Positions 1 through 53,888 of a stretch of 64,000 nucleotides of DNA are shown here, one piece after another. This DNA comes from Ulota crispa (lineage: Eukaryota; Streptophyta; Bryopsida; Orthotrichales; Orthotrichaceae), in assembly GCA_963920765.1 (NCBI GenBank), contig OY987249.1, positions 18,076,483 through 18,140,482 of the forward strand. Reading direction: 5' to 3'. The notes under the pieces were generated by a model. That model worked only from the letters and a program-made list of their open reading frames with translations. It made no database searches and was not told the DNA's origin. How positions within the stretch are numbered: position 1 is the stretch's first letter; every line of letters begins with the position of its first letter. The translations under genes were made by a program, and so were the position numbers.

Positions 1-142
1 CACCTCGTTGTAGTTGAATTTGTCCTTTCACCTTGCCCCTTGGCCCTTGGCCAATCACAAATGATCAAATCGACGGACAAACACACAAACACACAAACAC
101 AAAATACACCACCCAAAGTGGGCATTCTTTTATAAGGATAGA
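1..142 (-). mobile_element. Helitron 5' end (partial; body lies left of the window)
   Basis: Read on the minus strand, this segment starts TCTATCCTTATAAAAG at 142 and runs out of the window at 1. Positions 30-142 are repeated nearly unchanged at 4681-4793, where the same terminus precedes a Helitron helicase. TC followed by an AT-rich TATAAAAG-like stretch is the usual 5' start of Helitrons, which move by rolling-circle replication. The base before TC here is G rather than the expected A, so the junction is not a simple insertion into AT. No coding part of this copy is inside the window. Confidence 0.6.
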
Positions 143-197
143 CGAGTCTTGAGACCATTTTGCGGTAGCCGCAAAATGGGATCAAGACTCGTCTATC
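137..197. repeat. Nested imperfect hairpin overlapping a Helitron 5' end
   Basis: GATAGACGAGTCTTGA (137-152) is perfectly complementary to TCAAGACTCGTCTATC (182-197). Inside it, ATTTTGCGG (157-165) pairs with CCGCAAAAT (169-177) around a TAG loop. Only four bases on each side between the two stems fail to pair fully. The outer stem includes the first bases of the Helitron terminus. It could be a Helitron 3' hairpin abutting the next element's 5' end, or a tiny foldback insertion; I cannot decide between them. Confidence 0.75.
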
Positions 198-1020
198 ATG
201 GTGGTGTGAAATTCAAGTTGGGGGATTCAAATAGGAACTCCGTGAAATGGTCTCATATTGGACGCTTCTGTTTAAAACAGCTGCACCACGTGAAGGTAGC
301 AATCCATGTAGCCATTTTTGCTTTTTGCAAGGGATTTCAACCTTTGAGTACCGTCATTGTAAATAATTCTACCTAGGTCTTCTAATAAATCTCATGGTCA
401 AACTGTGCTCCAAATAGTCACCGCAAGAACTCCTTGTACACGACATTGGTCATTGTTTCACCGTCCTGACAATGTAGTGCCACATTTCCAACACTGATAA
501 CTCAAGACAATGCCACATACAATTGACCACGCTGTCGGGTTGAGAGGAGCGCGCCTTGAGAACACGCAGGGTGTCTTGCTGCGATCGTGCGTTGCCGACT
601 GAAAACGTTGTCAATCTTGATCTTCTCTTCAAATCTTCAGTCTTCAGTCTTTCGTTGGCCTATCCTGTGGCTGGCTCTAAGGGTATAAGGGTCAAGGTAG
701 GGATAAGAGCCCACTGGATACGGGACGGGTAGATTGGGACAGCAGACACAAGCTGCCGTCCGTATGACGGGATCCTAAAATCAAATTCACGATCTGCTGG
801 CCAAAACTCCAGATCGTGAGAACAGAGCAAGTCTCGACCATGTGGGTGATCAATCCCACTTCGTCATCACGACAATAAATGGGGTTAAGTTTGGTTTAAC
901 CCAAACTGCCCGCAACAAGGTTTACAAAACAGAATGGAAATGAATTGACAAACGAGCCTCCAAAACCGGCTAGGAATAACAAAGCCACATCCCACACATA
1001 CATAAAAAATAAACCCAAAA
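198..1020. other. No gene seen; single-copy-looking DNA
   Basis: No reading frame here resembles a known family and all frames are short. The section from about 640 to 960 is more GC-rich than its surroundings but shows no terminal repeats or splice-consistent coding. It may be internal Helitron or captured sequence between the two Helitron 5' ends. Confidence 0.5.
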
Positions 1021-1023
1021 CAT

Positions 1024-1109
1024 TCCTCTTCAAATCTTCATATCTTCAGATCTTCAAGTCTTCATGTCTTCAAGTCTTCATGTCTTCAAGTCTTCATGTC
1101 TTCATGTTT
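1024..1109. repeat. CTTCAAGT/CTTCATGT simple tandem repeat
   Basis: An 8-bp unit alternating between CTTCAAGT and CTTCATGT is repeated about ten times, giving a 16-bp higher-order period in the middle of the array. A shorter, degenerate stretch of the same motif lies at about 620-650. Confidence 0.9.
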
Positions 1110-1139
1110 TAATGAAAACAATGGGGAAAATCACAAATA

Positions 1140-2080
1140 ACAAGTCCTAGAAAAGGCAGCAACCTTCTATCTAATGCCACAGATGGCTCAAAGATTCAAA
1201 TGCTAAGTGTAATAACAATTTGAAAAGCTCTCCTAACCTTCTAACATCCCTCTAAATTTCAACTCAATCTAAGATACTGTCCAAAAGTTATGCGAGTTCA
1301 AAGTAGAGGCTCTTCTTCCTCTTTACAAACTAAACACTGCCTCTAAAAACCTCTATAACTTTTGTTCTATACATCACCCATAGAAATGTGATATCAATTT
1401 AGAAAGATGATATCACTGGCTTCAACCCATAAAATTTGCACTTCAAAACAAAACTTTGTCCGAAAGCTCTAGTCAATCAAAGTGTGGGTCTCAATTTTTT
1501 AGAGAGCACCCAAACCCGCAACTTCTACCCACTATAACTTCTTCAATAAAACTCCAAATGAAATGATTAAAGACAATTTGAAAAGCTATGACAACAAACT
1601 ATCACTCCTAAAATTTTGAAAAGAAAATCTCATACTGTCCAAAAGTTGTAGCTCTTCAAAATCTCGGCTTTCTCCTAACAAAAGGGCAGCCACCTCCAAA
1701 CCTTCACACTTCCATAACTTTCTCGTCCAAGCTTCAAACCTCAAGTTTAAAGACTTTCTAGAAAGCCAATAATAAGATAAACACTCTCTCCAAATCTTGT
1801 TGCAAAATGATATACAGATCATAAGTTATGGCTTGTCGAAGTCTCAGCCTTTCTTCATAGTTTGGCTTTTTGATTCCAAAATTCAAACACTCATAACTTT
1901 TGCATCACAACTCCAAATTAAACTTGCAAACTCATTTTGGAAAGGTAATCACACAAGGAACAACCTCCTCAAATTTCAATTCAAAATCACGTATACACAG
2001 AAAAAAATCTCCTCTCAAAGTTTCAGGATTTTTCCCTTTCTTCCCACCAACACTCATACACTAACTTCCAACAACTAAGG
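1140..2080. repeat. Degenerate tandem repeat, period about 181 bp, five units
   Basis: Three landmarks recur in register. The CAATTTGAAAAGCT-like block is near 1216, 1393, 1573, 1752 and 1932. The TGTCCAAAAGTT-like block is near 1267, 1452, 1636 and 1810. The ATAACTTTT-like block is near 1347, 1531, 1712 and 1891. Spacings are 174-185 bp. Units are strongly diverged and carry no open frame. It may be a satellite remnant or the internal repeat array of a larger element; the family is unknown to me. Confidence 0.7.
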
Positions 2081-2329
2081 GATTTTTCCTCCACAATTTC
2101 GACCCTATCTAAGGTAGGGAGGTGGGGCACATCAGCCCATGCTCCTCCTTATCCTAACCCCACCATAGATGCCAAAACCCTTTTCCTTTCACACCTTTCC
2201 CATTGACTTCTAAATCCTTAGTATTTTTATTCAAACAAAGGCAAAATATATGAGCCTTCCAAAATCTCTAGATAAACATATGAAAATGATTAAATTACAA
2301 AATAAACACCATCGTAAAATGGCCACGTG

Positions 2330-2640
2330 CTCTTGCGAGCATATAATAGCGTCAAACGCTTGTCTTCAGTTGCCAAGTCGTGGACTTGGTTGGCTGAAAA
2401 AGCGGTCGTCTCTGGCCGCCCGCCGGTCCGGGTTCGAATCCCATCGAACTCGTCGAGCGGTGATGGCGGCTCACGGCTTGGCAGCTAGTGAGGCAGGAAA
2501 TTGGCCCAGCCAACCCGCTACCTACCCCCCTGAGCTGTGCATGTGACAAGACGGCGCAGCGCATTGGAATCTATGGCCGCTGCGCTGTCACCAAACCGTG
2601 GTCCTCACCACGACCACCCCTTTTGCCTCAACTGTTGATT
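2330..2640 (+). mobile_element. tRNA-headed SINE-like element
   Basis: A GC-rich segment carries an RNA polymerase III type 2 promoter. A box-A-like TGGACTTGGTTGG lies at 2381-2393, and a perfect box B, GGTTCGAATCC, at 2431-2441. The roughly 50-bp spacing fits a Leu/Ser-type tRNA with a long variable arm. A stem like an anticodon arm, GCGGTC..GGCCGC, lies between the boxes. The arms of a true tRNA are incomplete, and unrelated sequence follows, including a hairpin with GCGCAGCG and CGCTGCGC arms at about 2555-2588. That is the head-plus-body structure of a SINE rather than a tRNA gene. No poly(A) tail or target duplication was resolved, so the ends are approximate. It sits just beyond the C-terminal end of the Helitron helicase. 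Confidence 0.55.
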
Positions 2641-4793
2641 TATTGAAATCAACACAAATATAAAGAAATAACAAGTATTTACATGATGGAGGAAAGTCCA
2701 TCAGGACAACGCGTGAATATGGGCTCTGGCAAATAAATGCCCACCGTTCCCATGGTCCTGCCTTGCGCCTTGTTGATTGTCATTACAAATGCAAGTTGTA
2801 TTGGAAATTTCCGCCGCAAAAGTGTAAACGGCCAGCGATGATCGGTGGACGATGTGATAATTCTCGAGATGTTCCATACGGTGCCCGCATGAATACCACC
2901 AACGATCTTTGCCACAATCAAAAGGCGTGCAAGACGTCAAACAATGAGTTGGGTCTCATTGCATAGGCCAGAACTTGCATCCAAGTTTTGCAATAATATA
3001 ACAGGTACTCCAATCTTCAAAGCCAGCTGATGTGGGGGCATTCCAGCCAAGGTGATCACGTTAAGAAACTCGCTTCCAATCCCCATGGCTCGATTGTCTC
3101 CCGCTGCAACTGTGTCTGCTGACAAAAAAACATGCTCTTCTCCGAGCATCGTCGCAGCAATCTCCGTGTTAATTTTGTTCACAATCGCGTTTTTTGTTGT
3201 TAAGATGGCCCGGCCATCCATATATCCGAGGTTTGCATATCGCATTGGAAGATTTGCAAACATAATGTCGATAAGGTTTTGAAGACTTGTGCAACGTGTA
3301 ATTCCAAGATATAGAGCAACCTCCATTCCAGCAGATGGTGCAGCGCCCACATGTGGCCGAGGGGCCTGATCCGCTTCAAGAACTGTAGCTTCAATACCAT
3401 CTCTGATACAAAGAATGCATTTTGCATATGGTCGAGAATCTGGGTCTGCACGCAATCGCATATTTTCTATTAGTGTTAGAATATGCACACGCCTCCAAAG
3501 CATTGACCGCTTGAAGGCCGCACCAACAATTGCCGAGCGCAATCCTCAAACCACAATAGGTGCACACTGCCGAATGTTGCCGCCAAATACAACCACTTTT
3601 TCACCAAAAGGAGAGTTGGACCGTTACAGTATGTCTCGCAAAGTTCAATCCACTGCTTTGGCGCAATGTCTGTGCTGGAATGGGGCCTCATCCCAAACAA
3701 TAAATTTAGCTGCACAAAGCACGTTGGCAATGTCAGATCTTGTTGAGATGCTATAGACGGAATCTCTATCAAAATCTATAGGGATCTTGAATACTGAATG
3801 CACCGTCCGCCCACCATCCAACAAAAGAGCTGCAATTCCAGAAGAAGCAACAGCAACAGCCACGTCACCTCCTCTCCGAACAGAAGCCAGTAAGATGCTG
3901 TACACAAATGTCTTGCCGGAGCCTCCTGGTCCATCAAGGAAAAAGACTTTGCCTTTGTCAAGGCGTACAGTGTCAAGAATTGATGTGACGGTCCTTTCTT
4001 GGTCGATGTTTAGGAGAGGTAAGCTTCTTTCCACTAGGATCTGCAGTGCAATCCTGTCGTAATTAAGCTTCGTTGCTAGGTACGCATTGGCGCGCTCTAC
4101 TCTTACAGGTGCGACCGCCAATGGCATTTGCGGAAAGTCTTGCAAGCTTTTATTTGCCAACGCTAATCTTGCATCCATAAGCAAAAGGGAATCATTATAC
4201 GCCTCTTCAACGGTCCTGCCCTCATTTCTTCTTTGATAACGCGTGTCATGGGACATTTCATCTTGATACCTCTCCCACAATACCTCCAGATGCAAATGGG
4301 AGCAAAACAATAATAGAATGACAAATAAATTTCTCAATCGCCTTGCATTTTGATCAACGCACGCCTCACACATGCATGCATCCCACTCCATGTTGTCTTG
4401 TAGCAAACCCAATGCACCGCATGCAGAATGAAAGGTTGGATATATAATGCCATCTATTGTCCGTACATTTTCAAATGACGTCGCTCTTAGTACGACGGTT
4501 AATATTAACATCATTTACCTCCTTAATGTTTGAATTTGAATTTCAAATCAATTTGCCTCTTCATCTCTCCTTCCCACCCCTTTGTACTTGAATTTCAATT
4601 CCAAGTTGGAAAAAGATCCAATAGGTTTCCACAAAGGATGCCCTTCCACACCCAACACCCAAGCCATTGTCTTTTCACATAGATTGCCCCTTGGCCCTTG
4701 GCCAATCACTAATTATCAAACCGATAGACAAACACACAAACACACAAATACAAAACACACTATGGAGAGTGGGCATTCTTTTATAAGGATAGA
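2640..4793 (-). mobile_element. Helitron, internally deleted and decayed
   Basis: The 5' terminus TCTATCCTTATAAAAG begins at 4793 on the minus strand and is preceded by A, as expected for insertion between A and T. About 280 bp downstream the Helitron helicase begins directly. The Rep/HUH endonuclease domain that should precede the helicase is absent, so the copy is internally deleted and cannot have been autonomous. The 3' end (a hairpin followed by CTRR) was not found; helicase coding stops near 2680 beside the SINE-like segment. The left boundary is therefore a minimum. A direct repeat of the 5' 113 bp lies at 30-142. Confidence 0.8.
2679..4514 (-). pseudogene. Helitron helicase (Pif1-like, SF1B), broken
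   Basis: Three open stretches in different frames together cover most of a Pif1-like Helitron helicase. At 4514-3645 they begin with the family signature ATSFENVRTIDG..YPTF. Next come Walker A GPGGSGKTF (residues 195-203 of that frame, about 3932), motif Ia VASSGIAALLL and motif II VWDEAP (about 3698). Part of the next block, KVVVFGGNIRQ, is readable near 3590. At 3542-2937 follow LTLIENMRL, ILTTKNAIVNKIN and GMPPHQLALKIGVPVILLQNLD. At 2921-2679 come FPIQLAFVMTINKAQGRT and LPEPIF. The usual last motif (YVALSR) is missing. The frame changes at least twice and has a TGA stop where the family has Arg. The helicase would have unwound DNA during rolling-circle transposition. It is clearly non-functional. 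Confidence 0.9.
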
Positions 4794-4807
4794 TATAGAA
4801 GATTAAA

Positions 4808-6148
4808 TTAACCCCTAAAATCCTTTTGTGTTTAGAGGCCCAAAAGTGCTTCAAAATACTAGTCCCCAAAGCAAGGTCAAAATCTTCATTGAAACTTACT
4901 TTCTAACAAATCCAACCATAGGATCCTTTGGTTGACTTGCACAAGTACATTGTCCCAAAATTTTAGAATGAATATCACCACCAATTGCAAGATCAATGTG
5001 CCTAAACTTCAAAATGTAGGCTTCTCTAGTCCTTCCAAAAGGTGAAGTTTTAATTTTCAAACTTTTTAGAGAAAAACACATATGTTGTATTTCTTGTGCA
5101 ATTTTTGCAATATGTTGGAAAATGGATTGAAAGCATACATAAACAAAATTAACCAAAAAGAATTTTGGATTCATTTTTACAAAAATTGTAAAGTGAAAGG
5201 TAATGATGAATGAAATATGTAACTAAATAATATGCTAATAAGTTTTGGAAAATTTTAAAAATTGTTAATTCCAATGGTGAGAATGCTCTAACAAACAATT
5301 AATGACTTTAATTTTCATTTTTATTTGAAAATTTTCAAAATTGAGAGTAAAAGATAAGGGAATTGATATGCATACCACACCTTCTTGACTATCCCACCAC
5401 ACCCCGGGGTAAATTTCAGATTTCTACCATCAAAAAGTTGAATTTGAGAATTTGGAATTCAAATTAGGACTCAGAGACTTGGATTTTGTTTAGAACCATA
5501 AAAAATGTTATAATTGAACAACACCCAATGAAAAAGCTTAACTTGAGGGGAAAGTATAACGTTTACTTTTGTTTATAAAAAAGATAAGCTTTTTCATTGG
5601 GTGTTGTTCAATTAAATTTTTTTTTTGTGATTCTAGACAAAATCATTGTCTTTGAGTTCAAATTTGAATTCCAAATTCTCAAATTCAACTTTTTGATGGT
5701 AGAAATCTAAAATTTACCCCAGGGTGTGGTGGGATAGTCAAGAAGGTGTGGTACGCATATCAATTCCCAAAAGATAACTTTATATGTTTTTTCTACCCTC
5801 TTCCTACCTTCATTGCCTGCAAAATAAAACTCATTTAACTCTTACCTCATTATTTGGATTTGAGTGATTCAATTTTTTTTGAGTAGGTATCAATCTGTAC
5901 AATTCTATAAAAATTAAAAATTAAAATTTAGAATGTATTTTTTGCTGCCCAGTTTGACATTGAAATTGAAAAAACCTTATAACTTTTGCATTACTTATCA
6001 AAATGACATGGAATAAAGCGTCACATGTAGATTATGATGAGTAGCATCCATCCTAAAAAATTCATGAAAAAATTCCAAATTATGAAGTCAATAAAGCCTG
6101 CCCAAGTTCTCACAAAGCCCAAAGTGGGCTTGGTCCTTGAGGGGTTAA
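4808..6148. mobile_element. piggyBac-like MITE, family A copy 1
   Basis: TTAA at both edges (4808-4811 and 6145-6148) flanks inverted ends, CCCCTAAAATCC on the left and GGNCCTTGAGGGG on the right. A second copy of the same family, without the internal insertion, is at 25776-26695. A minus-strand open frame at 5174-4896 is shared with that copy but matches no family I know. TTAA target duplications are diagnostic of the piggyBac superfamily. The element carries a Mutator-like foldback at 5358-5768, which explains its extra length. Confidence 0.85.
5358..5768. mobile_element. Mutator-like foldback MITE inside family A
   Basis: The ends GGGAATTGATATG and CATATCAATTCCC are complementary, and homology between the arms extends about 190 bp inward, so nearly the whole element folds back. 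It is flanked by a perfect 9-bp duplication, AAAAGATAA (5349-5357 and 5769-5777). The sister copy at 25776-26695 has a single AAAAGATAA at this point, which proves the insertion. A 9-bp duplication and long inverted ends are typical of Mutator-like elements. A related, older copy is at 36533-37289. Confidence 0.9.
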
Positions 6149-7230
6149 ACTACGAAACATGTGGATCACATGAGTGAAATAGTTCCCCTGTAAAACAACA
6201 CGAAGAGAGATTAATCACAATAATCATAGATATTAAGTGGTCTTGAGTTCTACCCAAAAAACTTGACCAAGTACTAACCATTGTACACCCAACTATGATG
6301 AGGGATCAATTAACCTTGTCATTGCATGCAGACATGAGAAACTCTCTTGCAAAAGAGCATGTGGATTCTTTATAAGGTCTATCTCCTAATAAAGATGTCA
6401 TGAATGAAATTTGCCATCTAAGCCAATGAAGCTTAAACAGTTGAATTACTACTCCCACCAAATGCTTCATCTATGCTAGTGTTTCAGACAGGAGTTAACC
6501 TTCTTCTTTGTCAATGGATACCATGGGCACAACGCGAGTCACTAAAGTTTACCATTAAAACAAAATTTATAGACATTTCAAGAGGTAACCTAACGAGGCA
6601 AAAACTTAAAAGAAAATGAATGTATCAATAATCAAGTAAGCTTATATTTACTTACCGTTTTGAGAAGACAGCTCCGGGGAGAGAATTCCCAGAAGGTATG
6701 GACCTGCACCATGATCTCCTCAGACCCACTGTCCAGGGGTGGGGTTTATTTGGGAAACTCAGTTGGCTGCATTGCCAGCATGAGTGCCAGTATTGGAGCA
6801 TGCTATGATTAAACATTCGACATTAGTCCCGAGATTAGCCCCGAGATTAGTCATGTGATTAGCCTGGTTCTACGTGTGATTGGCCAAGTGATGTGCACAA
6901 TTGCTTGGGACTTCAAAAAAGAGGAAAAATTTGGGTATTTCTATTGGTTGTTTACTCATTCAGTGTGTTTGGGGTTCCTCCTTTGCAGGGTCTGTCCTGG
7001 GTCGAGGCTAAACATGGCACTACTGTATTTTGGTGTAAAACCTTGGCTTTTCGTTGGTTACTATGCTGGGCATGGGATCGCATAGGAGAAGCTCCTGGAA
7101 CATGGAGAGGCCAGAAAAGTGCTTGGGGAATTAATTTAAAAATTTCAGGACAGAGTGATTTCCGCGATTTCTGGATTGGGGGGATTGTTGAATTTAATCA
7201 GGGAGGAGGGGAGGCATGCGCGCGTTATTA
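6149..7230. other. No gene seen
   Basis: Mixed-composition DNA between two TTAA elements. The longest frames (plus strand, about 6855-7234) overlap one another in two registers and resemble no protein family, so I read them as chance frames. No terminal repeats were found. Confidence 0.5.
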
Positions 7231-10626: not shown

Positions 10627-11036
10627 GGGTAGTACGCTCAAAAACCGCCCATCTAAGGGTTCATCCCTCTTTTTCATGGTCTTCCGTGGATGGAAGGATT
10701 TTTAGTTCATTTTTCAAACAAAGAGAAATAGATGCTCAATGCAACACAAATCGTTTCATATTTTTTGAAGCATTTTTGAGTTACTTAGGAATTCTCAAAG
10801 TGCATGTGTCATAGGTACCTATAATTAACCTTAGACCTTCCAAGAACCGTTCACTTGCAAGTTGTGAACAGATTTGAGAAAGCAGGGAGAATGATTGGCT
10901 CTTGCAATTAAAAACAAATTTTCTTTTGTACATTCAATGAGTTGTAAGAGGCTAATGTAAGAACCACCAGTGCACCATTTCACAACAAGCTACTGAATGG
11001 TTCAAAATGAGCAAACAATTTTTGAGCTTACTACCT
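10627..11036 (+). mobile_element. TA-flanked MITE, family D copy 1
   Basis: A 410-bp element with ends GGGTAGTACGCTCAAAAAC and GAGCTTACTACCT, between TA at 10625-10626 and TA at 11037-11038. A near-identical 410-bp copy lies inverted at 15344-15753. The high similarity of the two copies indicates recent activity. The right TA is embedded in the TTAA that starts the next element. Confidence 0.85.
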
Positions 11037-11953
11037 TAATCCTTTAAAGACCACACACATTTTCACAAAATCCATTAGAAACCACGGTAGTAAACTTGGA
11101 TGTGCGTTTGAATCAATTATGGACCCAATTTCAATAATCCAACCATACAAATGAGAAGTAGACCTTGTTTACTATAAAGCATCAAAATCTCAATTAGATC
11201 TTCCGTTGGAGATGAAATATTATAATGATTGAGTGAGTTGTAGGCAGGAACTCTCTAGTTTTCATGCTTGTGTGGTTTTGGATCTTATTGCTTCATACAA
11301 GCTTTGCTTGAGAAGAGCCTTATATTTCTAGAAATATGGGTTTCCCACCTTTCTAATGAGACTAGTTTCACACAAAATGGATAAAAATAGCAATCACAAG
11401 GTGTAGCTAAGTGGATAAAAGGGTCAAAAATCCCACTTTCTTTGCTACCCAAAAGTATTTTTACAAGAAACTTGATAAATGCTATGGAAAATCCAATTGG
11501 TGAAAACAATAAAGAATTGGCCTTAAATGTAGGACAAATTTTTTAAAGATGAAATGATAGCATCATTTCAATAGATCTTCAAATACTACAATTATACTAC
11601 TACTGTATTGGAAACCAATACAAGCATATTTCTTGACCAATCTGAATTTTTTTAGGATGGCATAATTGATATTTGGCATTCTTCTTGGATGTTTGATGTA
11701 TTGTGTTGTTGCTTTGATCCATCTTTGACCAAATATGAATACGTGTTTTGAGGCCATGCCGTATAAACACCATTATTTATGAACTCACATACCCGATTCC
11801 ATTGTTATTTTTTTGGTTGGATGCAAAATTCTAGTGATCACAAGCATTCTTCAAGACTAGTTTCCAAATTGTTGAGCGATTTTTCTCTATATGCCAAAAA
11901 CCAAAACCACTCTGCTGAACCAAAATATGGTTCGGTGGTCTCTAAAGGGTTAA
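11036..11953 (-). mobile_element. piggyBac-like MITE, family H copy 1
   Basis: TTAA at 11036-11039 and 11950-11953, with ends TCCTTTAAAGACCACAC and GGTGGTCTCTAAAGGG. The full length matches the inverse of 52327-53242 (916 bp against 918 bp). The end nearest 11953 adds an inner palindrome of the form ACCAAAATATGGT. Non-coding. Confidence 0.85.
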
Positions 11954-37289: not shown

Positions 37290-37975
37290 AAACAAAAAAT
37301 ACTACATATAGAGGCACAATTTCAAAATAATTTGTGAGCATTTGTAATATTGTTTGGTTTAGCTATTGGTTGATTTAGATACTCACATCAAATGTTAGTT
37401 CTTAACCCTTAAACGCTAGTGGGGCCCTCTGTGGCCAGGATCATGACTTTTTCCGGTATTTGGAGATGTTGACGGTCAAGTGATGGAGCATGTTTTGGTC
37501 CAAGTTGTATTGCATGTTTTTGGAATGGTTTAGAATGTTTGTTGGAGTGAGGGTTTGTCTCTGTTGTATTGTAGGGTCAATTGTACAAGTTTGACTATAT
37601 GCATACATATTTGTATAGGGGTTTGGCCACCCGGTGAGTGGGTGGGTCACCAGGATGCCAGGCTGGCGTGAATGCCATGGTGCCACATCCAGTCGCCATG
37701 TTGGCTGGCCCAGACGTCACATCGACATGACATGACCTCCAGTGTGGCGTTGCAAGGTCTCCGCCATGGCGAAACATTTATGTGGCCCCCTCGATTCTTC
37801 TTGCAGCGCTCGCGCCTTAGGGTTATCGTGTGGGCGTACTTCACTAGCGATTTCACATAATCACAGTTGCAGATTAAGGTTGGGCAAATCCTTAGGTACA
37901 GTTGCACAGTCTGGTAGTGCAGTCCGCATCTCGGCGGTTTCAGCTGAAACAGTTATGATGCATTGTAAGTGAGGT

Positions 37976-38692
37976 ATGGAAAGAGGGAGAGTGGTGTTCC
38001 TCTTTAGTTTTGGACGCAAGAGTCTCTACAACGCAGTAGATGCAGTTATGAACTCGTTACTGCTCCCGCTGCCAGAGGATGAAATGCAAGTAGAAGCAAA
38101 AACTCTATATGCCTGGGCTCTCAATCGCGGTGCAACAACATTCCAAGGCAGGTTCATTCTTGGATTGATCTCTGTCCCATGGATGTGTGGATTGCCTTTA
38201 CCGCCTCGCACTCACCAATTGCCCAGAAGAATAGATGAGGAGTGGCATTGATTCTTGTTTCGTAGACACGTACATCACGTTCTGAGGTGGACAAAGCAAT
38301 TAGAGGAGGGGGATCCGCGCGGTTTCAGCGACGCTGTGAATTCCTTGATTAGATTCACATTCTTCCCTGACGCAGACATTGAACGAGATGGGACGATTGA
38401 AGGAGGAAGCTTGGGATCCGGCTCAGGTTCGGCAGCCGACGAACTCGCCCAGCTTGTGACCCTCGCTTCAACGGAGGCTGCTCGCCACAAGAGACGAAGG
38501 TGCCTCGATCGCAACAGGGTAGACACTCGCAATTGCAGTGGGGGGAATTACCCTCCAGTTCTACTCCAGGAGCAGCCTTGCCAAGCAAACCCACCAAATG
38601 CAATACTAGAGACCAGCTCAAACGAGTTCACAGCAGTCCTTCCGAGTTCCCACAATCCACACATGGTAGTGGTGATGGGGAATCCACCCTAG
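37976..38692 (+). pseudogene. Upstream reading frame of the piggyBac element, function unknown
   Basis: One frame runs from an ATG at 37976 to 38692, interrupted by a single TGA at about 38249. The translation (about 238 residues) looks protein-like rather than random. Its first part is mixed hydrophobic/charged (LYAWALNRGATTFQGRF), followed by RRHVHHVLRWTKQLEEGDPRG, a Gly/Ser linker and a basic stretch RHKRRRC that could be a nuclear localisation signal. I do not recognise a domain. It lies on the same strand as the transposase, about 1 kb before its first supported part. It might be an accessory protein, a captured gene or a distant N-terminal exon. Confidence 0.45.
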
Positions 38693-40722
38693 CTAGGAAG
38701 CTAAGGAGAATGTTACTTGCAACCTTCTGAAAATCTAGTTTTGCCTGTCAACTGCGCGGATCATTCCGAGAAGCAGCTTCGAGGAGGGCGTCATGTCAAA
38801 GTGGGGTTGCCGACTGCAGCACTAGGAAGCGTTCCAAATCCAGGGGGAGCACTGCTGCTCGCACGACAACATCTGGTCAGTAATTCAGTCACACCTCCTG
38901 AAGGACCGCCTGTTCCATCAATTGGATCCATGGCAGCAGGTGACTTGGATTGAAATTCAAACGGTGGAGGGAGAATGAATGCAACTTCACGAGGGTGTGC
39001 AACTAACCGCGGAAGGCAGACGGGTCAAGAAAAGCAGGCTACTACCTCATAGCGTCAAGGGCTGGATTCAACTTCCCAACAACCGCGTGCAGTGCTGGAG
39101 GGGTGGATTGCGCCGGGCATAGCTCTCGTCTGAAGGAGTCTAATCCTTTTGCGGTCAAGATCGACAACTACCACACTGACCAGGCAAGTTCATACACTGT
39201 CCTTGCGTTTCTTGGATACTGTTAGGCCTCGATGTTAGAAATGCTTTCAAATTTCTACTCTATGTGTACTAAATGATTTCAAACACCCTCAGTTGCCTAG
39301 GTAATCTTTACGGGTCGGGGTGCTCCATATTCGAGTCCCCTGGTTCCTAGATCAACGTGGAATACATAGAGGGCAGAAACCTATGTGTGCTTGGGGTGCA
39401 ACTAGTCATGGATGCACTTCATTAGATGGGAAGGATGGTAGCAGATTCATGCTAGTATTTGGTACTAGATTTCATGGGTACATCTTGTCTTCTGTAGGTT
39501 TTCCAGTTTGTACTTGTCTCCTAAATTTGAGCCCTACATGTGAGGCTTGATTCTTGGGACACGTCGTCTCCTTCGGCAGTTTAGTCTGTGTTTCCAGTAC
39601 TAAGTATCTGCTGATTTGTGGGCATTCTCCAAGAACCAAATCGCTCTTGGTGGCACAATGGCAACCCAAGTTATCGAAGAAGATGTAGTCGACATAATAG
39701 CGGTGGATGACATTGACATTGCCACAACATTGGAGGCAGGATTTGTCACGCATGTTTAGACCAAGATTCCTTACAATACTCGAACCCAAGATCCAGCTTC
39801 TGACGGGACCAGATCCGCTACATTCAATTGCGGTTTATTGTCTACTAATTTCACACCGGGTATACCATCCACGCGCACTTTAGCCCATCAAAGTCTCCAC
39901 GGCCCGGCATGGCTGCACCTTTGCGAGAGCATGTCGTGCCCATTCCAAAAGGAGTATTGGGTTGCTAGTGCCAAAACATATGCACAAAGGAGGCCGGTTG
40001 CAGACGTGTTTGCTACGCGGGATCAATTCACCTTGACTTCCGAAGCTTGGCCGCAGAAGTTGTTCATCCGGGTCCAACTACTGGCCCTTGGATACAACTC
40101 TCCCCTTTGGGCAGACTCACACACTTCCAAGGCAAGGTAATTGCACGTTTCTACCACCGGATATCCGAGCTTTCAACGTTTACAATCGACATTGGGGGCT
40201 CTATTGGATTCAGACATCAGCTGGTGCAAGACACGAAGGTTGACAATGCCGACATTCTAAGTGTGGTCGAAGTTGCCCATGCAGCACAAAGAGCTCTATA
40301 TTCTCTGAGCCTCAAAGCATATCCCCCCCCTCTGGTCCTCATGGCTCTTCTTGTTGTGTTGCAAGCGAGGGATCTCTCTCAAACCCAAGTAGTTTTGACT
40401 GGAGGGGTGAGTTTCACAATTTTGAAGACGGGAGTAGCAAGAATGTCTGGTCTTCCCCAGAGGGCTCCTTCCATGAGTTTCCAATGGCACAACTGGGGTT
40501 CTACGATCCAGAGGAAGATCTAATCAACTAGTCCTTCGAGGATACTTGGGCCGATGATCAATGGCAGGAACCTGTGTTGGAGCTGTAGGGCGATCGACTT
40601 TTCAGTGGACCCACACTTGGAGCAAAGAGGAGCTTGCAAATGGCTCTAGCGTCACCCATGGTTTATTTCCTCAAGTTCTAGCCGCCAACGATGCTAAATT
40701 CCATAGTTAGGGAGACAAACAG

Positions 40723-40974
40723 GTAACATTCTTGAGTTTCCCATTTTCTTCAGTGTGTACAACTCACTTATTTTTGTAACATTAGTAATGTTGGATAGAT
40801 TCATGACTGATTGGTTCTTGCAAAATTGAGGTCATTCCGGTGTTTCTTCATACTGTTCTCTGTACCCCGGCCACTCAAGCTACTCGCACAGCTAGCCATA
40901 CCTGTGCCAATGTCGGTAATGTTTTTAGGTTTCATGCTGTAATATTTTGAATGAATGGACAGGCATGTGCGCAG
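40723..40974 (+). other. Intron 1 of the piggyBac transposase
   Basis: The coding motif IVRETNR breaks at AACAG/GTAACA (intron from 40723) and resumes after GCGCAG at 40974 with YAKQTDRKK. The split codon restores Arg and joins the two halves of the family motif ETNRYA. It is 252 bp with GT-AG ends and phase 2. Confidence 0.85.
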
Positions 40975-41448
40975 GTATGCAAAGCAGACAGACAGGAAGA
41001 AGCCGCACTTGACTAATGGCCGCAGCAACTGGGTCGAGCTCACCAACTAGGAATTGCTGTGCTGGTTTGGCATATTGATTTTGATGGAGCTAAAGGTCGT
41101 TTCCCACCAAAGGCTTTACTTAGACATCAGGTTCTTCTACCATTGCCCCATTGTGAGTTCTCTTATGAACCGCCATTGATTTGAGGCTATTGTTTGATGC
41201 ATCCATCTTGTGAACAACAACAACCTGGTGAGAGATGTGAATGATGTGCGCTATGATAAGATTGGCAAGGTACAAGCTCTAGTTGAAGGATTCACACGGA
41301 TCAGCCAATCATTGTATAACAATGAGGCCATATGCACAGTGGACGAGATCATGGTCCCTTATAAGGGCCAATATTCTGCAATCCGTCAGTACATAAAATC
41401 TAAACTCGCGCAATTTGGGATCAAGATATGGGCATTAGCCTCTACTTA

Positions 41449-41709
41449 GTCCAGATAAGAGAATCCTACTTCTTAAGAATTTTTTGCATATTACTTTGAA
41501 ATCTTAAAATGCCTTGCCCTTCAATGCTATGGTTTCACCGGCTAGTAAAGATTGTATGTTGCTTGCTTAGCTTCCAAATGGTGTTCACTGTTTCTAGAGA
41601 AGGTTTGCAATCATGGTTGTATTTGACCTCTTCATGATGTTTAGGGTTTCTGGGGTTGCTTTTATATCTTCCTGACTTTCTCACATTTCCCCCCTCCCTT
41701 GCCTGCAAG
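41449..41709 (+). other. Probable intron 2 of the piggyBac transposase
   Basis: Family homology stops after GIKIWALAS (about 41446) and resumes with HVSNVMVYLGAG from about 41710. The intervening 250-260 bp has no homology and is T-rich with a pyrimidine tract (CCCCCCTCCCTTGCCTG) before the resumption, as in an intron. The donor and acceptor dinucleotides in the register that keeps the frame look altered (ATAAG and CAAG), so the boundaries are approximate. Confidence 0.65.
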
Positions 41710-42591
41710 CATGTCTCCAATGTTATGGTGTACCTTGGGGCTGGTACAAAAGTGGAGGTTGGAGCCCTAGTTGGTGAGGATGTTGTGCTTCAAATTGTCC
41801 ATGGCCTTGAGCATTGAGGTCACATGATTGTGACGGATAACTTCTTCACCGGTATAAAGTTATTCATGAAATTGTTGGAGAGGGGGTTCTATGCCACCGA
41901 GACCGTGAAGAAGGGGTCCAAAGGATTCCCTACTTCACTTAGAGGGTTCCCTAAGACAAACCTCCCTCCTAGAGGTACATTGATAACTAAAATGCACCGT
42001 TCGAGATCGATTGCTGCAATTTGCTGGATAGACTCCCGCCCTGTTTGGCTGTTGAGTACGGCAACCCATCCGGTCCATGATGGAGCGGTGGTCGGGCAGT
42101 GGATCAAGAGAGATCGTGTGCAGTTCCCCACTAGCCCGATTCTTCTGGAGTACCAAAAGAACATGCGTGGGGTGGACGTGGTGGACCAGCAGCGCGATAA
42201 TTATATCGTGTAGCTGTAGTCTCACAAATGGTGGCAACGCATCCTCATGTTTATACTTGATTCTTCTTGTTTGAACTCTTATATTTTATATTGGGAGGAC
42301 GCTGAGCAGGTGGGATTGCAGGTGACAGCTAGGCTTCAGTAGCACTATGAGTTAGGGATGGCGTTGGTTTACCCACACTTGTAGACGGGTATTGTACATG
42401 GGCCATACCGGACAGTGGCACGACCGAGCTTTCACCACATAGAGGGACACCCCACTCATTGATGCCTTTGCGTTGTTTGTCGCCGTAGAACAAGATATTT
42501 CTGTGGTGGATGTGGGTGTGCGTTTATGTGCAATGGCGTCTGTTACGTCACTGTGCATACTCAGCCAGGGTTCCGCATGGGAGGACGTTGA

Positions 42592-44152
42592 CGCCTATAA
42601 TTGGAGGAAGTGTCGGCATTTTGCAAGACCGGCAGAAGTGGTCAAAGGTAGCTGGCCGCAAGCACTAAAAGCAGGGATGCGTCATTCTATAAGAATTATG
42701 TAGGGCGGGGGAGGAAACCTTAAGCTAGCTCTATTATTCTGGTAGTTTCCGAGGAGTTGGATTGAAGGCAGGGTTGTAGCTGCACATTTTGTGCATCCCT
42801 TTTGAGTTTGTAGAGGGCTTCGTGGGCCTCATCGGATTTTTTTTTGTTTTCAGAGCCCTAGCGTGGTTGTTTACTGAGTTACATTGATCCAGCGCTCATA
42901 GAATTTTTGGTGTAATACCCTATGCATCAGCTTCAATGTAATAGAACTTACTATAATTTTGGACTTTTGCTTTCAATATGTTACGTGAACTCTTGTTGTT
43001 TGGATGAGGAATGTGGCGGGCTTCCAACCCTTTCTGATTGTGGCCGTTGGAAATGAGAGCCTATGTGAGGCTGTGTTCATCTATCTGGAGCCATCGTCCA
43101 TTGTATAGCATGGATTCTTGTGAGTGAGTTCCTCAGGACTAAAAGAACTTTCCTTTCCGATGCTAGTTCAAAATATGAAAGTGCTCGTTTGACCCGCAGG
43201 CTTTTGTCAAGACTGCATAGCAAATACCGCGTGGGTTGTTTGGTTTCAGGGAAAGCTTGTTACGTAGTTTGCGTGTCCAAGTGAATCATGCGGGGCTGAA
43301 GAACACCCAAGAAATGTGCAAACTCCCAAATACATGTACCAAATGAGCAATTTTGCTGAAGTGCGACTTGAACCACCCGAACCCGGAATTCTCGAGAAGA
43401 GAATGCGTGTTTCAAGAACCAAAGTCGTGACTCACAACTTGAACAAAATCTAAATCGATTGGGTCTCTTCAAGCCGTAGTGATCCTGACTTTCAATTAGG
43501 GGCACTGCTCTTTTGCTGCTACTCTCTAGGCATAGTAAACCTCGCGCTATATAGGCCTCTCGCATGAAACGACCCTAGCAGAGAAATGAGGGCAGAAGCA
43601 ACTACGAGGCTCAATGGAAAAGGAGTGTGCAAACGGTCATGAAGCAACCTTGTACATCAAACACAACAAACACTTGTATCAGTGCGTCATCAATCCCTCG
43701 AGCGAAGCGAAATTGTTGAGGAAGAGAGTGACTGTCGTTCACTCGGAATTGTCGAATCCAAGAGAGCTGGCAGTGCCAGATCCATGTCATCTCCGAAGTT
43801 CAGCGACCTGGCACCCCAACGCATTTGAACGGACCAACTCATGCAAAATCTTGCCATGACTACGCACAATGGCTCCAGAGGTGGCAGTTGACGTGGTCCG
43901 TATAATCACCGCAGACTAGCTTTCTGGTAGGTGACCGAGCATTGGCTTATGGACGGTGACGCATCCACAAATTTTGAAACACACTGGGCGATTTCGCGTG
44001 CAACACGTGCATATGAACTGCAAATCGTGCACAAGCGCATCGAAACAATCGGATCAGCCGGAGTCGCCCCAAAAAGCTTGAGAAACCAGCAACAACAACT
44101 ATAGAACTCCTCTACAGTTGCCCAAATACGATCCCCTTTGGGCGTTTACGGG
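42592..44152. other. 3' part of the piggyBac element, no gene identified
   Basis: Between the transposase stop and the right inverted end are two open frames, 43565-43260 (minus, 101 codons) and 43614-43859 (plus, 81 codons). Neither shows a known domain. The composition stays CpG-rich, like the rest of the element. They may be remnants of a second gene or chance frames. Confidence 0.4.
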
Positions 44153-44156
44153 TTAA

Positions 44157-45000
44157 AGTCCTAAGCTAAGTTTTTAATCAAAACAGCTCCAAAACTGTCA
44201 TTTCTAGTACAAGTATCAAATTTCAAAAAAAAAAAAAAAAAAAAAAAACGGATACATGTAGCTGTAAGATCTTGTACTACATTATACCAAAAGATGGGGA
44301 AAAAATTAGAAATTTTTACCATGTAGATTGTAAGATATTTGAGTTTCAATTGACAAAAAGCCAATTTTGTCCTTGCAAAAATTTGGGCACCTGCACTTCA
44401 CAAGGTCATATTTGTATAAAAAAAATTCCAAAATGATTGTGATTTTTTAGGTTTGTTCTTGAAAGCAAGTTGGGTATACATGATAAAATTTTCCAATCAT
44501 TTGGAATTGTACAACACATGTGAACGAAATAGTAAGTAAAAAGTAGAGATTGATTCAAACCACTAACTTGTTAAGACCTTAATTATGGAAATTCAAAATT
44601 CCAATCCTAGTGGTTATGTTGTAATAAACAATTTACATTCTTAAGTTTTATTTTTTTTCCAAAAGACTAAAACGAGAGTAAAATAAAGGACATGAAAGTT
44701 TATTTAGAGTAGAGAATCCATAACTACCCGGAAATAAAATCTCCTCATAACTTTCATTTCATTGATAAAAATGGAATGATTAAAAACTTCCCATGTATAT
44801 AGAAATCTAAAGAATCAATTTTAAAAAAGAAGATGTATGAAATGTAAATTTTAAAGAATTTTTTTGTTTGCCCAACAAGCAAAGAAAACTACATATCATG
44901 CAATAACTTTTGAACCATGTAGCCAAAAGTTAAGAAAATTATTGGGCCTTAAAGCTACTCCTTAGACATATCATGTGTGAAATTTTCAAAAAAATAATAA
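44157..45000 (+). mobile_element. Diverged family K-like element
   Basis: From about 44420 the sequence follows family K (GTAAGTAAAAAGTAGAGATTG and GTTGTAATAAACAATTTAC blocks) but is more diverged than the other copies, and both inverted ends are eroded. A 24-base A run is at 44225-44248. It starts at the TTAA closing the piggyBac element. The right boundary is uncertain. Confidence 0.6.
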
Positions 45001-52326: not shown

Positions 52327-53242
52327 TTAACCCTTTAAGGACCACACGACCATATTTTGGTCGTTGGGAATGGTTTTTGGCATGTAGGTTGAAATCGTTC
52401 AATGATTTGGAATTTGATCTTGAAGTATGCATGTGATCACAAGAATTTTGCATCCATTTAAAAAAAGAACAATGCAATTGGATATGTGAGTTGATAAATA
52501 ATAGTATTTATACGGCATGGCTTCAAAATACGTATCCATTTTTTGTCAAAAATGGGTCAAAGCAACAACACAATACATCAAGTATGCAAGAAGAATGTCA
52601 AATCTCAATTGCACAATTCTAAAAAAAATCAAATTGCTTAAGAAATACGCTTGTATTGTTTTCATATATGGTAGTAGTATAATTGTAGTATTTGAAGATC
52701 TACTGAAATGTTGTAGTCATTTTCGCTTTAAAATTTGTCATCCTACATTTAAGGCCAATTCTTGATTGTTTTCACCAATTGGATTTTCCAAAATAATTAT
52801 CAAATTTCTTGTAGAAGCATTTTAGGGTAGCAAAGAAAGTGGGTTTTTTTTATCCTTTTTGTCCACTTAGTTACACCTTGTGATTGCTATTTTTGTCTAT
52901 TTTGTGTGAAAATAGTCTTGTTGGAAAGGTGGGAAACCCTACTTTCTAGAAATGTAAGACTCTTCTCAATCAAAGCTTGCATGAAACATTAACATTCAAA
53001 ACTGTACAAGAATGAAACACAAGAGATTTTCTGCATATAGCTCACTCAATCATTATAATATTTCACCTCCAACGGCAGATCTAGCTGAAATTTTGGTGCT
53101 TTACAATAAACAAGGTTCACTTCCCATTAGTACGGTTGGATTATTGAAAATGGGTCCACATTTGAGTAAATTCCAAATCTAAGCTTACAGCCCCTATTTT
53201 CAGTGGATTTTGTGAAAATGGGTGTGGTTGTTAAAGGATTAA
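52327..53242 (+). mobile_element. piggyBac-like MITE, family H copy 2
   Basis: TTAA at 52327-52330 and 53239-53242, ends CCCTTTAAGGACCACAC and GTGTGGTTGTTAAAGGA, 916 bp. It is inverted relative to 11036-11953. The inner ACCATATTTTGGT palindrome follows the left end. Its right TTAA is simultaneously the left TTAA of the next element. Confidence 0.87.
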
Positions 53243-53888
53243 CCCCTAAATGCACAAGACACTTTTTGAGCTAGAAATTTGTTCTAAGTTGAACAAAAAA
53301 AGCCAAAATTTTGATAAGTTGTATTGGTTTAGTTTTTTTAATAATTGTACAAAATCAAACTACATATGTTAGAGATTGCGTAGGAAAAGAAAACACAACA
53401 ATATTATTTATGGATTGAAAGATTATAGTATTTGATCAAGATGGTGTTAAAAATACAAAAATGACTTGAAATCTTTCAATCCTCTATTCACATGTCAAAT
53501 CTAAAAAAATGGTCACATGAAAAATACAAGGTTAAAGGACATAACATACGTAACTCCAATCAATTTTTGGTTTTTCAAAATCTCCTCTCCAATTTTTTTA
53601 AATGAATTTCTAGTGTAAATTTTTCTCCAATGTTTAGTGTATTTGAGGCTTATTTCCAAGAGCTCTCAACACTAAAAATGTCAAGATTGCAATGAACTCC
53701 CTTGCACAAAATCTTGAATAGAAAAATCATAGTCAATCATTTACAAAATCAAAATTTTGATACTAAAACCAGACTTCTGAAAGATTAGTTTAAAAAAAAC
53801 TACTAAAAATAGAAAATTAGTTAGATTTTATAAAAGTTCAAAGTTTTGTCAACACTAGAATGTGGTGCCTGGAGCATTTAGGGGTTAA
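53239..53888 (+). mobile_element. piggyBac-like MITE, family B copy 2
   Basis: TTAA at 53239-53242 and 53885-53888, ends CCCCTAAATGCACAAG and GGAGCATTTAGGGG, 650 bp. It is closely related to the neighbour at 53955-54606 in the same orientation. Non-coding. Confidence 0.88.

Follow-up and report, generated by a model that had tools for sequence, protein, structure and literature searches.

A dead piggyBac transposon in the moss Ulota crispa with the features of a long, intron-containing family

The piggyBac superfamily supplies the main genome-engineering tool for animals and is little described in plants. A TTAA and CCC-type ends are typical of its known elements. The described transposases used for comparison here are those of PDB entries 6x67 and 6x68, which we take to be the piggyBac transposase of Trichoplusia ni, and piggyBat (9c0f). 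We set beside them an element of 6,755 bp, positions 37402-44156 of a 64,000-nucleotide stretch of the Ulota crispa genome (the window; contig OY987249.1, called C8 here, positions 18076483-18140482). The boundaries proposed for it in a first-pass annotation proved exact. The element is a piggyBac transposon and this copy is dead. With high confidence we assign it, in decayed form, to a moss lineage whose piggyBac transposons are long and contain introns.

Animal piggyBacs in print measure 1.23-9.51 kb and have transposases of up to 1,316 aa (PMC10813416; this source, like all others cited here except the two genome papers named below, is represented by excerpts). Our element had been called about twice the usual length, which fits the classic 2,472-bp element, but the printed animal range goes higher. 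For plants, PiggyBac is among the superfamilies present in all taxonomic groups of one survey (PMC4438587), a fern assembly has 1,230 PiggyBac RepeatMasker copies (PMC6890710), PiggyBac miniature inverted-repeat transposable elements (MITEs) are listed for angiosperms (PMC10004981), and piggyBac-like elements in plants are mentioned elsewhere (PMC8086355). The main texts of the Sphagnum and Fontinalis genome papers contain no piggyBac (PMC9946827, PMC9631980). A literature search made without most subscription journals, preprints and repeat databases listed no account of piggyBac in mosses among its matches, and the two for Niphotrichum were the word 'piggybacking'. The superfamily is already in print for land plants, and a moss account is new among the matches listed. 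The earlier remark that piggyBac is rarely reported in plants is partly right.

TTAA is present at both ends of the element. The 5' terminal inverted repeat, TTAA included, occupies 37402-37417 on the + strand (TTAACCCTTAAACGCT), and the 3' repeat occupies 44141-44156 and reads TTAACCCGTAAACGCC on the − strand; the first bases of the element are TTAACCCTTAAACGC and the last are GCGTTTACGGGTTAA. The two arms are identical at 14 of 16 bases with the TTAA counted, and they form short inverted ends with a CCC/CCYT start, as in piggyBac. An equally good arm match occurs in 7 of the 7,679 TTAA..TTAA pairs that lie 5-8 kb apart in the window, the element's own pair included. A second full copy, L010, has the same start and ends at the corresponding place.

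Inside the element, the Pfam profile DDE_Tnp_1_7 matches at 41198-41446 (E 1.6e-9) and at 41818-42210 (E 6.9e-12), both above the curated cut-off. The motifs TVDEIMVPYKG, IVTDNFFTG and MRGVDVVDQ are all found, and the contexts of the three catalytic aspartates are retained (DEIMVPYK, DNFFTGIK, GVDVVDQQ). The first two aspartate motifs align with both 6x67 and 9c0f and the third with 9c0f; the third motif of 6x67 aligns with a better-kept relative, L033, in a separate PDB comparison. In the PDB searches piggyBat was matched at E 0.0011 by the window's own exon and at 1.3e-8 by L033, which also matched the 6x67 transposase at E 0.00023. A phage RNA polymerase matched the window's exon as well (E 0.0039), which we took to be chance. 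The TTAA inverted ends, the profile matches and the Asp motifs together bear out the superfamily named in the first-pass annotation. As to the C-terminal zinc finger named there, visual inspection shows an in-frame Cys/His-rich tail around 42463-42558, but the Pfam scan gave no zinc-finger profile match.

Translated comparison with relatives delimited four conserved blocks on the + strand, at 38081-39190, 39655-40723, 40973-41455 and 41707-42594. The candidate first coding exon, exon A (38048-39183, +, start and end inferred, AG|GCAAGT), has an N-terminal region conserved at the protein level; in the window its frame is interrupted by a stop at 38249 and by others beginning at 38690. Candidate exon B/C (39634-40722, +, start inferred) would encode an N-terminal part of the transposase, and it shows 1-base gaps relative to L010 near 40118 and 40323. 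Intron 1 (about 40723-40974, +) keeps GT..AG, in agreement with the earlier description of a transposase with at least one clean intron. Exon D (40975-41454, +) holds the first half of DDE_Tnp_1_7 with the first catalytic Asp (DEIMVPYK), and four in-frame stops (41048, 41177, 41195, 41447). Intron 2 (about 41455-41708, +) has lost both splice sites in the window copy (AT..AA); the donor GT is retained in 8 of 9 relatives and the acceptor AG in 7 of 9. Exon E (41709-42594, +), where the second (DNFFTG) and third (GVDVVDQ) Asp motifs and the Cys-rich tail lie, has seven in-frame stops (41815, 42211, 42217, 42340, 42382, 42460, 42589). Because of the stops, the frameshifts and the loss of both splice sites of intron 2, the window copy is a dead transposon. 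The last three blocks of L033 give matches to positions 1-25, 30-166 and 166-349 of DDE_Tnp_1_7. The first of these matches is the 3' end of its exon B/C and is weak (E 0.12, below the cut-off); exon D matches at 5.6e-32 and exon E at 1.2e-25. Three exons appear to encode the catalytic domain, and upstream of it the gene has a long N-terminal part that includes a conserved region.

L010 lies on the same contig (C8:11359398-11366172) and is 87% identical to the window copy over query positions 1-6753 in a DNA search of the genome. The search gave at least 47 further matches at 65-78%, all within query positions 3554-5172, which are the transposase exons (the best 40 of 47 candidates were scored). 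Ten long-family loci were examined, namely the window copy, L010, L033-L036 and L047-L050. All but L010, whose exon D match is split, were placed in a tree with nine other moss sequences and two PDB outgroups, and the long family forms one clade with support 1.000; in the alignment, L036 and L047 are out of frame at the third motif. Mean identity between moss and PDB transposases is 24-25%. A profile search of the genome found at least 120 DDE_Tnp_1_7 matches on C1 to C11, a lower bound with 116 of 528 candidates scored, and many of these read through the entire domain in a single frame with no intron. Another moss piggyBac lineage, at L066 (C4:3587900-3594400), has an open 476-aa frame at 3828-5255 with no stop in the domain; its third motif reads GVNVGDQ and is perhaps not catalytic.

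Within exon A lies a coding region of about 105 residues in which 12 columns are invariant across eight sequences from at least two lineages. Searches with it gave no Pfam match except for one member at E 0.057, and a best PDB match of E 0.21; single-sequence AlphaFold was uninformative (mean pLDDT 41), and one scan with one protein found no carriers in viral contigs. The genome holds 121 matches to the region (some loci are counted twice, both in this list and in that of DDE_Tnp_1_7). A same-strand piggyBac exon lies downstream of 84 of the 121 (42 have DDE at up to 8 kb and 71 have exon C at up to 6 kb) and neither exon type in 37, while none has a listed piggyBac exon in antisense within 8 kb. 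Seen from the other side, 15 of the 120 DDE_Tnp_1_7 matches have the exon A region 1.5-4.0 kb upstream. Exon A might instead be a separate second gene of the element, encoding an accessory protein. It stands 0.8-2.4 kb from exon C in 60 of the 71 cases that have exon C downstream, and its frames are broken. The constant order and strand speak for the N-terminus of the transposase, as does the donor-like AG|GC site at the end of exon A. Order, strand and donor-like site do not decide between one protein and two, and we regard a second gene as a real possibility, if somewhat short of an even one.

Lone exon A matches are frequent near contig ends. Among 36 of the 37, those on C1-C10 (one on C11 was dropped), 8 lie within 50 kb of an end, where 0.14 are expected, and 17 within 500 kb, where 1.36 are expected. 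Subtelomeric targeting was rejected as an explanation because the two lone matches that were opened are one duplicated block and not independent insertions. This subtelomeric block (L067, C8:21154400-21161110; L068, C7:23500-29500) is 91.7% identical over 4.07 kb between the two contigs. It holds a piggyBac 5' fragment, with its end at L067:3047 and exon A at about 3677-4072, cut off by a TTTAGGG array at L067:4572. In one of the two copies the fragment adjoins 304 telomere repeats.

Many neighbours of the element in the window are TTAA/piggyBac-type miniature elements, which are short and non-coding and have the same ends in inverted pairs. The window contains 37 end-like sites against 1.09 expected, and none of 100 shuffles reached 37. 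Of 144 ends of self-alignments of at least 200 bases, not all of them independent, 38 fall on such sites, where 1.6 would be expected, and end pairs of up to 1.5 kb, some of them weak, cover 11,725 bases or 18% of the window. End sites and self-alignment mark one such element at 52327-53242, of the same family as 11036-11953, and another abutting it at 53239-53888 (neither was assigned a strand). A single TTAA serves both, which would fit insertion of one at the end of the other. Genome-wide, the 17-base end motif TTAACCCYTAAANGNCC has 9,725 and 9,740 copies, 19,465 together, against 0 and 1 for the reversed control; with AATT in place of TTAA there are none. The variant TTAACCCYTAAACGYCC, found exactly at the 5' end of L010, has 483 + 537 = 1,020 exact copies against 0 + 0 for its control. 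Since 10 of the 43 window sites with at most three mismatches fit the motif exactly, ends in the genome probably number, by extrapolation, several times 19,465.

Their shared ends suggest that the short copies were probably mobilised by related piggyBac transposases. They could belong to some other superfamily that uses TTAA, given that they and the coding element have only the end sequence in common and that the interior of the element has no DNA match to the window's miniature elements. We consider this improbable: the miniature elements have the same TTAA and CCCYTAAA start as the coding element, the exact end of L010 recurs in the numbers just given with nothing in the control, and TTAA followed by a CCC start is the piggyBac rule (PMC10175614, PMC10813416). 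The first-pass annotation had named the surrounding repeats CACTA-, Helitron- and Harbinger-type. Many of them carry piggyBac-type TTAA ends. A Helitron-like PIF1 helicase is indeed present, but no CACTA or Harbinger protein appeared in the six other open reading frames (ORFs) scanned, which was not a full search. Besides these miniature elements, that annotation had missed the death of the copy and the size of the superfamily in the genome. The Helitron-type helicase fragments lie in two ORFs on the − strand at 2940-4514 (PF05970 6.3e-37, PF21530 8.3e-18). Scans of the window for tRNA and Rfam families gave no matches.

The element itself seems to have landed in a dispersed repeat, at a TTAA within the repeat's piggyBac-type end (the opened copies of the repeat have CTAA there). 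When 200 bases of each flank were joined over one TTAA and compared with the genome by BLAST, they matched across the junction at C7:10277131-10277352 (query 175-404) and at C5:21750350-21750556 (query 194-404), which supports precise TTAA insertion. Many other right-flank matches begin at query 199-210. The three copies that were opened read TTTAACCCCTAAAGCTC, TTTAATCCCTAAAGTCC and TTTAACCCCTAAAGTCT where the joined flanks read GTTAGTTCTTAAAGTCC. From these matches, 37393-37401 (+) would be the left remnant of the repeat's end, and 44157-44356 (+) the continuation of the same repeat on the right. The host repeat is probably an older miniature element. The end variant of these miniature elements, CCCTTAAA (37393-37401 and 44157 onward), itself contains TTAA, the kind of site apparently used here.

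The length of about 6.7 kb is a family trait, because the second full copy and three distant elements share it. L010 is colinear with the window copy along its whole length; 859 of 6,747 aligned sites differ, 689 of them by transitions, and indels are of at most 9 bases. Both ends were found in five of the ten long-family loci, giving 6,755, 6,777, 6,595, 6,666 and 6,682 bp; among the other five, some ran beyond the stretch retrieved, and an absent end there means little. L035, L036 and L048 are distant elements of 6.6-6.7 kb with both ends and near-equal length and order, in a set with a mean transposase identity of 59%. The window is rich in repeats, some of them nested, but an ordinary piggyBac of 2.5-3 kb enlarged to 6.75 kb by nested insertions is very improbable beside the colinear L010 and these three elements, and we rejected it.

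The host of the element is a moss. C8 is a 21.2-Mb contig of a 274.8-Mb, 157-contig genome, in which 56 matches to light-harvesting chlorophyll a/b proteins (LHC) were found, some on C8 itself. A LEAFY C-domain on C4 matched PDB 4bhk, which we take to be moss LEAFY, at 372.9 bits, the next chains following at 286, 284, 271 and 163. The LHCB search gave 8htu and 7xqp, presumably from Physcomitrium, at 457 bits, against at most 437 for the other single-domain chains listed. The LEAFY and light-harvesting genes bear out the plant-lineage host suggested at first pass. At the end of C8, the only contig end read, there are 304 TTTAGGG units. Decay of the repeats was also compared by sequence context. 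The two long copies show C/T differences at 181 of 896 CG, 181 of 1,013 CHG and 327 of 4,512 CHH sites, and eight miniature-element pairs, picked from a longer list of window repeat pairs, at 35 of 126, 46 of 182 and 338 of 2,864. The CHG excess persists within CA, CT and CC contexts and fits plant CHG methylation. Contamination by a contig of some plant-dwelling animal, fungus or protist, which the best-known hosts of piggyBac bring to mind and which had been named beforehand as a refutation, left no sign and is the least credible alternative, rejected on a contig that ends in TTTAGGG repeats and has its own LHC matches, on moss-type LEAFY on C4, on the spread of at least 120 DDE_Tnp_1_7 matches over C1 to C11, and on the CHG-context decay in the element.

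Several observations weigh against parts of this account. All long-family copies found are broken, and the N-terminal exon model was built on such copies from sequence only; the placing of exon A in the same protein as the transposase draws on order, strand and distance. At its right end, L010 has TTCA instead of TTAA. At the insertion site, the flank matches are paralogous copies with CTAA, not TTAA, at the junction, and the third opened copy (L069, on C9) matches by BLAST only from query 202, the preceding bases aligning by eye. With only two outgroup transposases, the tree says nothing on descent. Transversions, too, are commoner at CHG (43 of 1,013) than at CHH sites (106 of 4,512; odds 1.8), so methylation is not the sole reading of the decay. 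For the host, the species of the PDB entries are presumed ones, and the highest-scoring LHCB row, at 521.5 bits, is 9vfj_2, which has several domains.

By analogy with the known piggyBac family, the DDD transposase of an intact element would act on the element's short inverted ends of CCCYTAAA type, excise it by way of hairpins and reinsert it at a TTAA; seamless excision would be expected of the superfamily. On the same analogy, the many short non-coding copies with ends of this kind probably owe their movement to related transposases. PiggyBac is known above all from animals, yet it has done very well in this moss genome, with many piggyBac genes and thousands of short relics. Our wider reading is a tentative one: mosses may possibly carry an old, plant-resident piggyBac branch, with a spliced transposase of perhaps 1,200 residues and a conserved N-terminal region unlike any described domain, that was a main source of MITEs in the genome, its TTAA insertions numbering in the tens of thousands. 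Native plant ends and transposases become available for study in a moss that has several coding lineages, short copies by the thousand and clear TTAA ends. Moss piggyBacs also make it possible to test whether descent in land plants was vertical or horizontal, and the role of the conserved N-terminal region (end recognition, targeting or regulation) is testable. Our results suggest that such MITEs may go unclassified when the repeats of moss genomes are annotated.

Like the piggyBac transposase of 6x67/6x68 and piggyBat 9c0f, the moss family has the DDD motifs, the DDE_Tnp_1_7 order, TTAA and CCC-type ends. It differs from them in being about 24% identical, in the introns inside its catalytic domain, in its long N-terminal part and in its length of 6.6-6.8 kb. 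Long animal piggyBacs, with lengths of up to 9.51 kb and transposases of up to 1,316 aa, reach the range of the moss family; the animal transposases described in that survey are encoded in a single ORF (PMC10813416), whereas the moss family has several exons, an uncharacterised N-terminal region and a plant host. Plant repeat annotations use the same superfamily name in land plants, but in their excerpts they give counts, a table entry or a list only (PMC6890710, PMC4438587, PMC10004981). Animal piggyBac-type MITEs, such as those of corals, seem to be treated in a paper on MITEs in which piggyBac and TTAA are frequent terms (PMC2872659), and the miniature elements described here differ from these in their moss host and their 19,465 exact end motifs.

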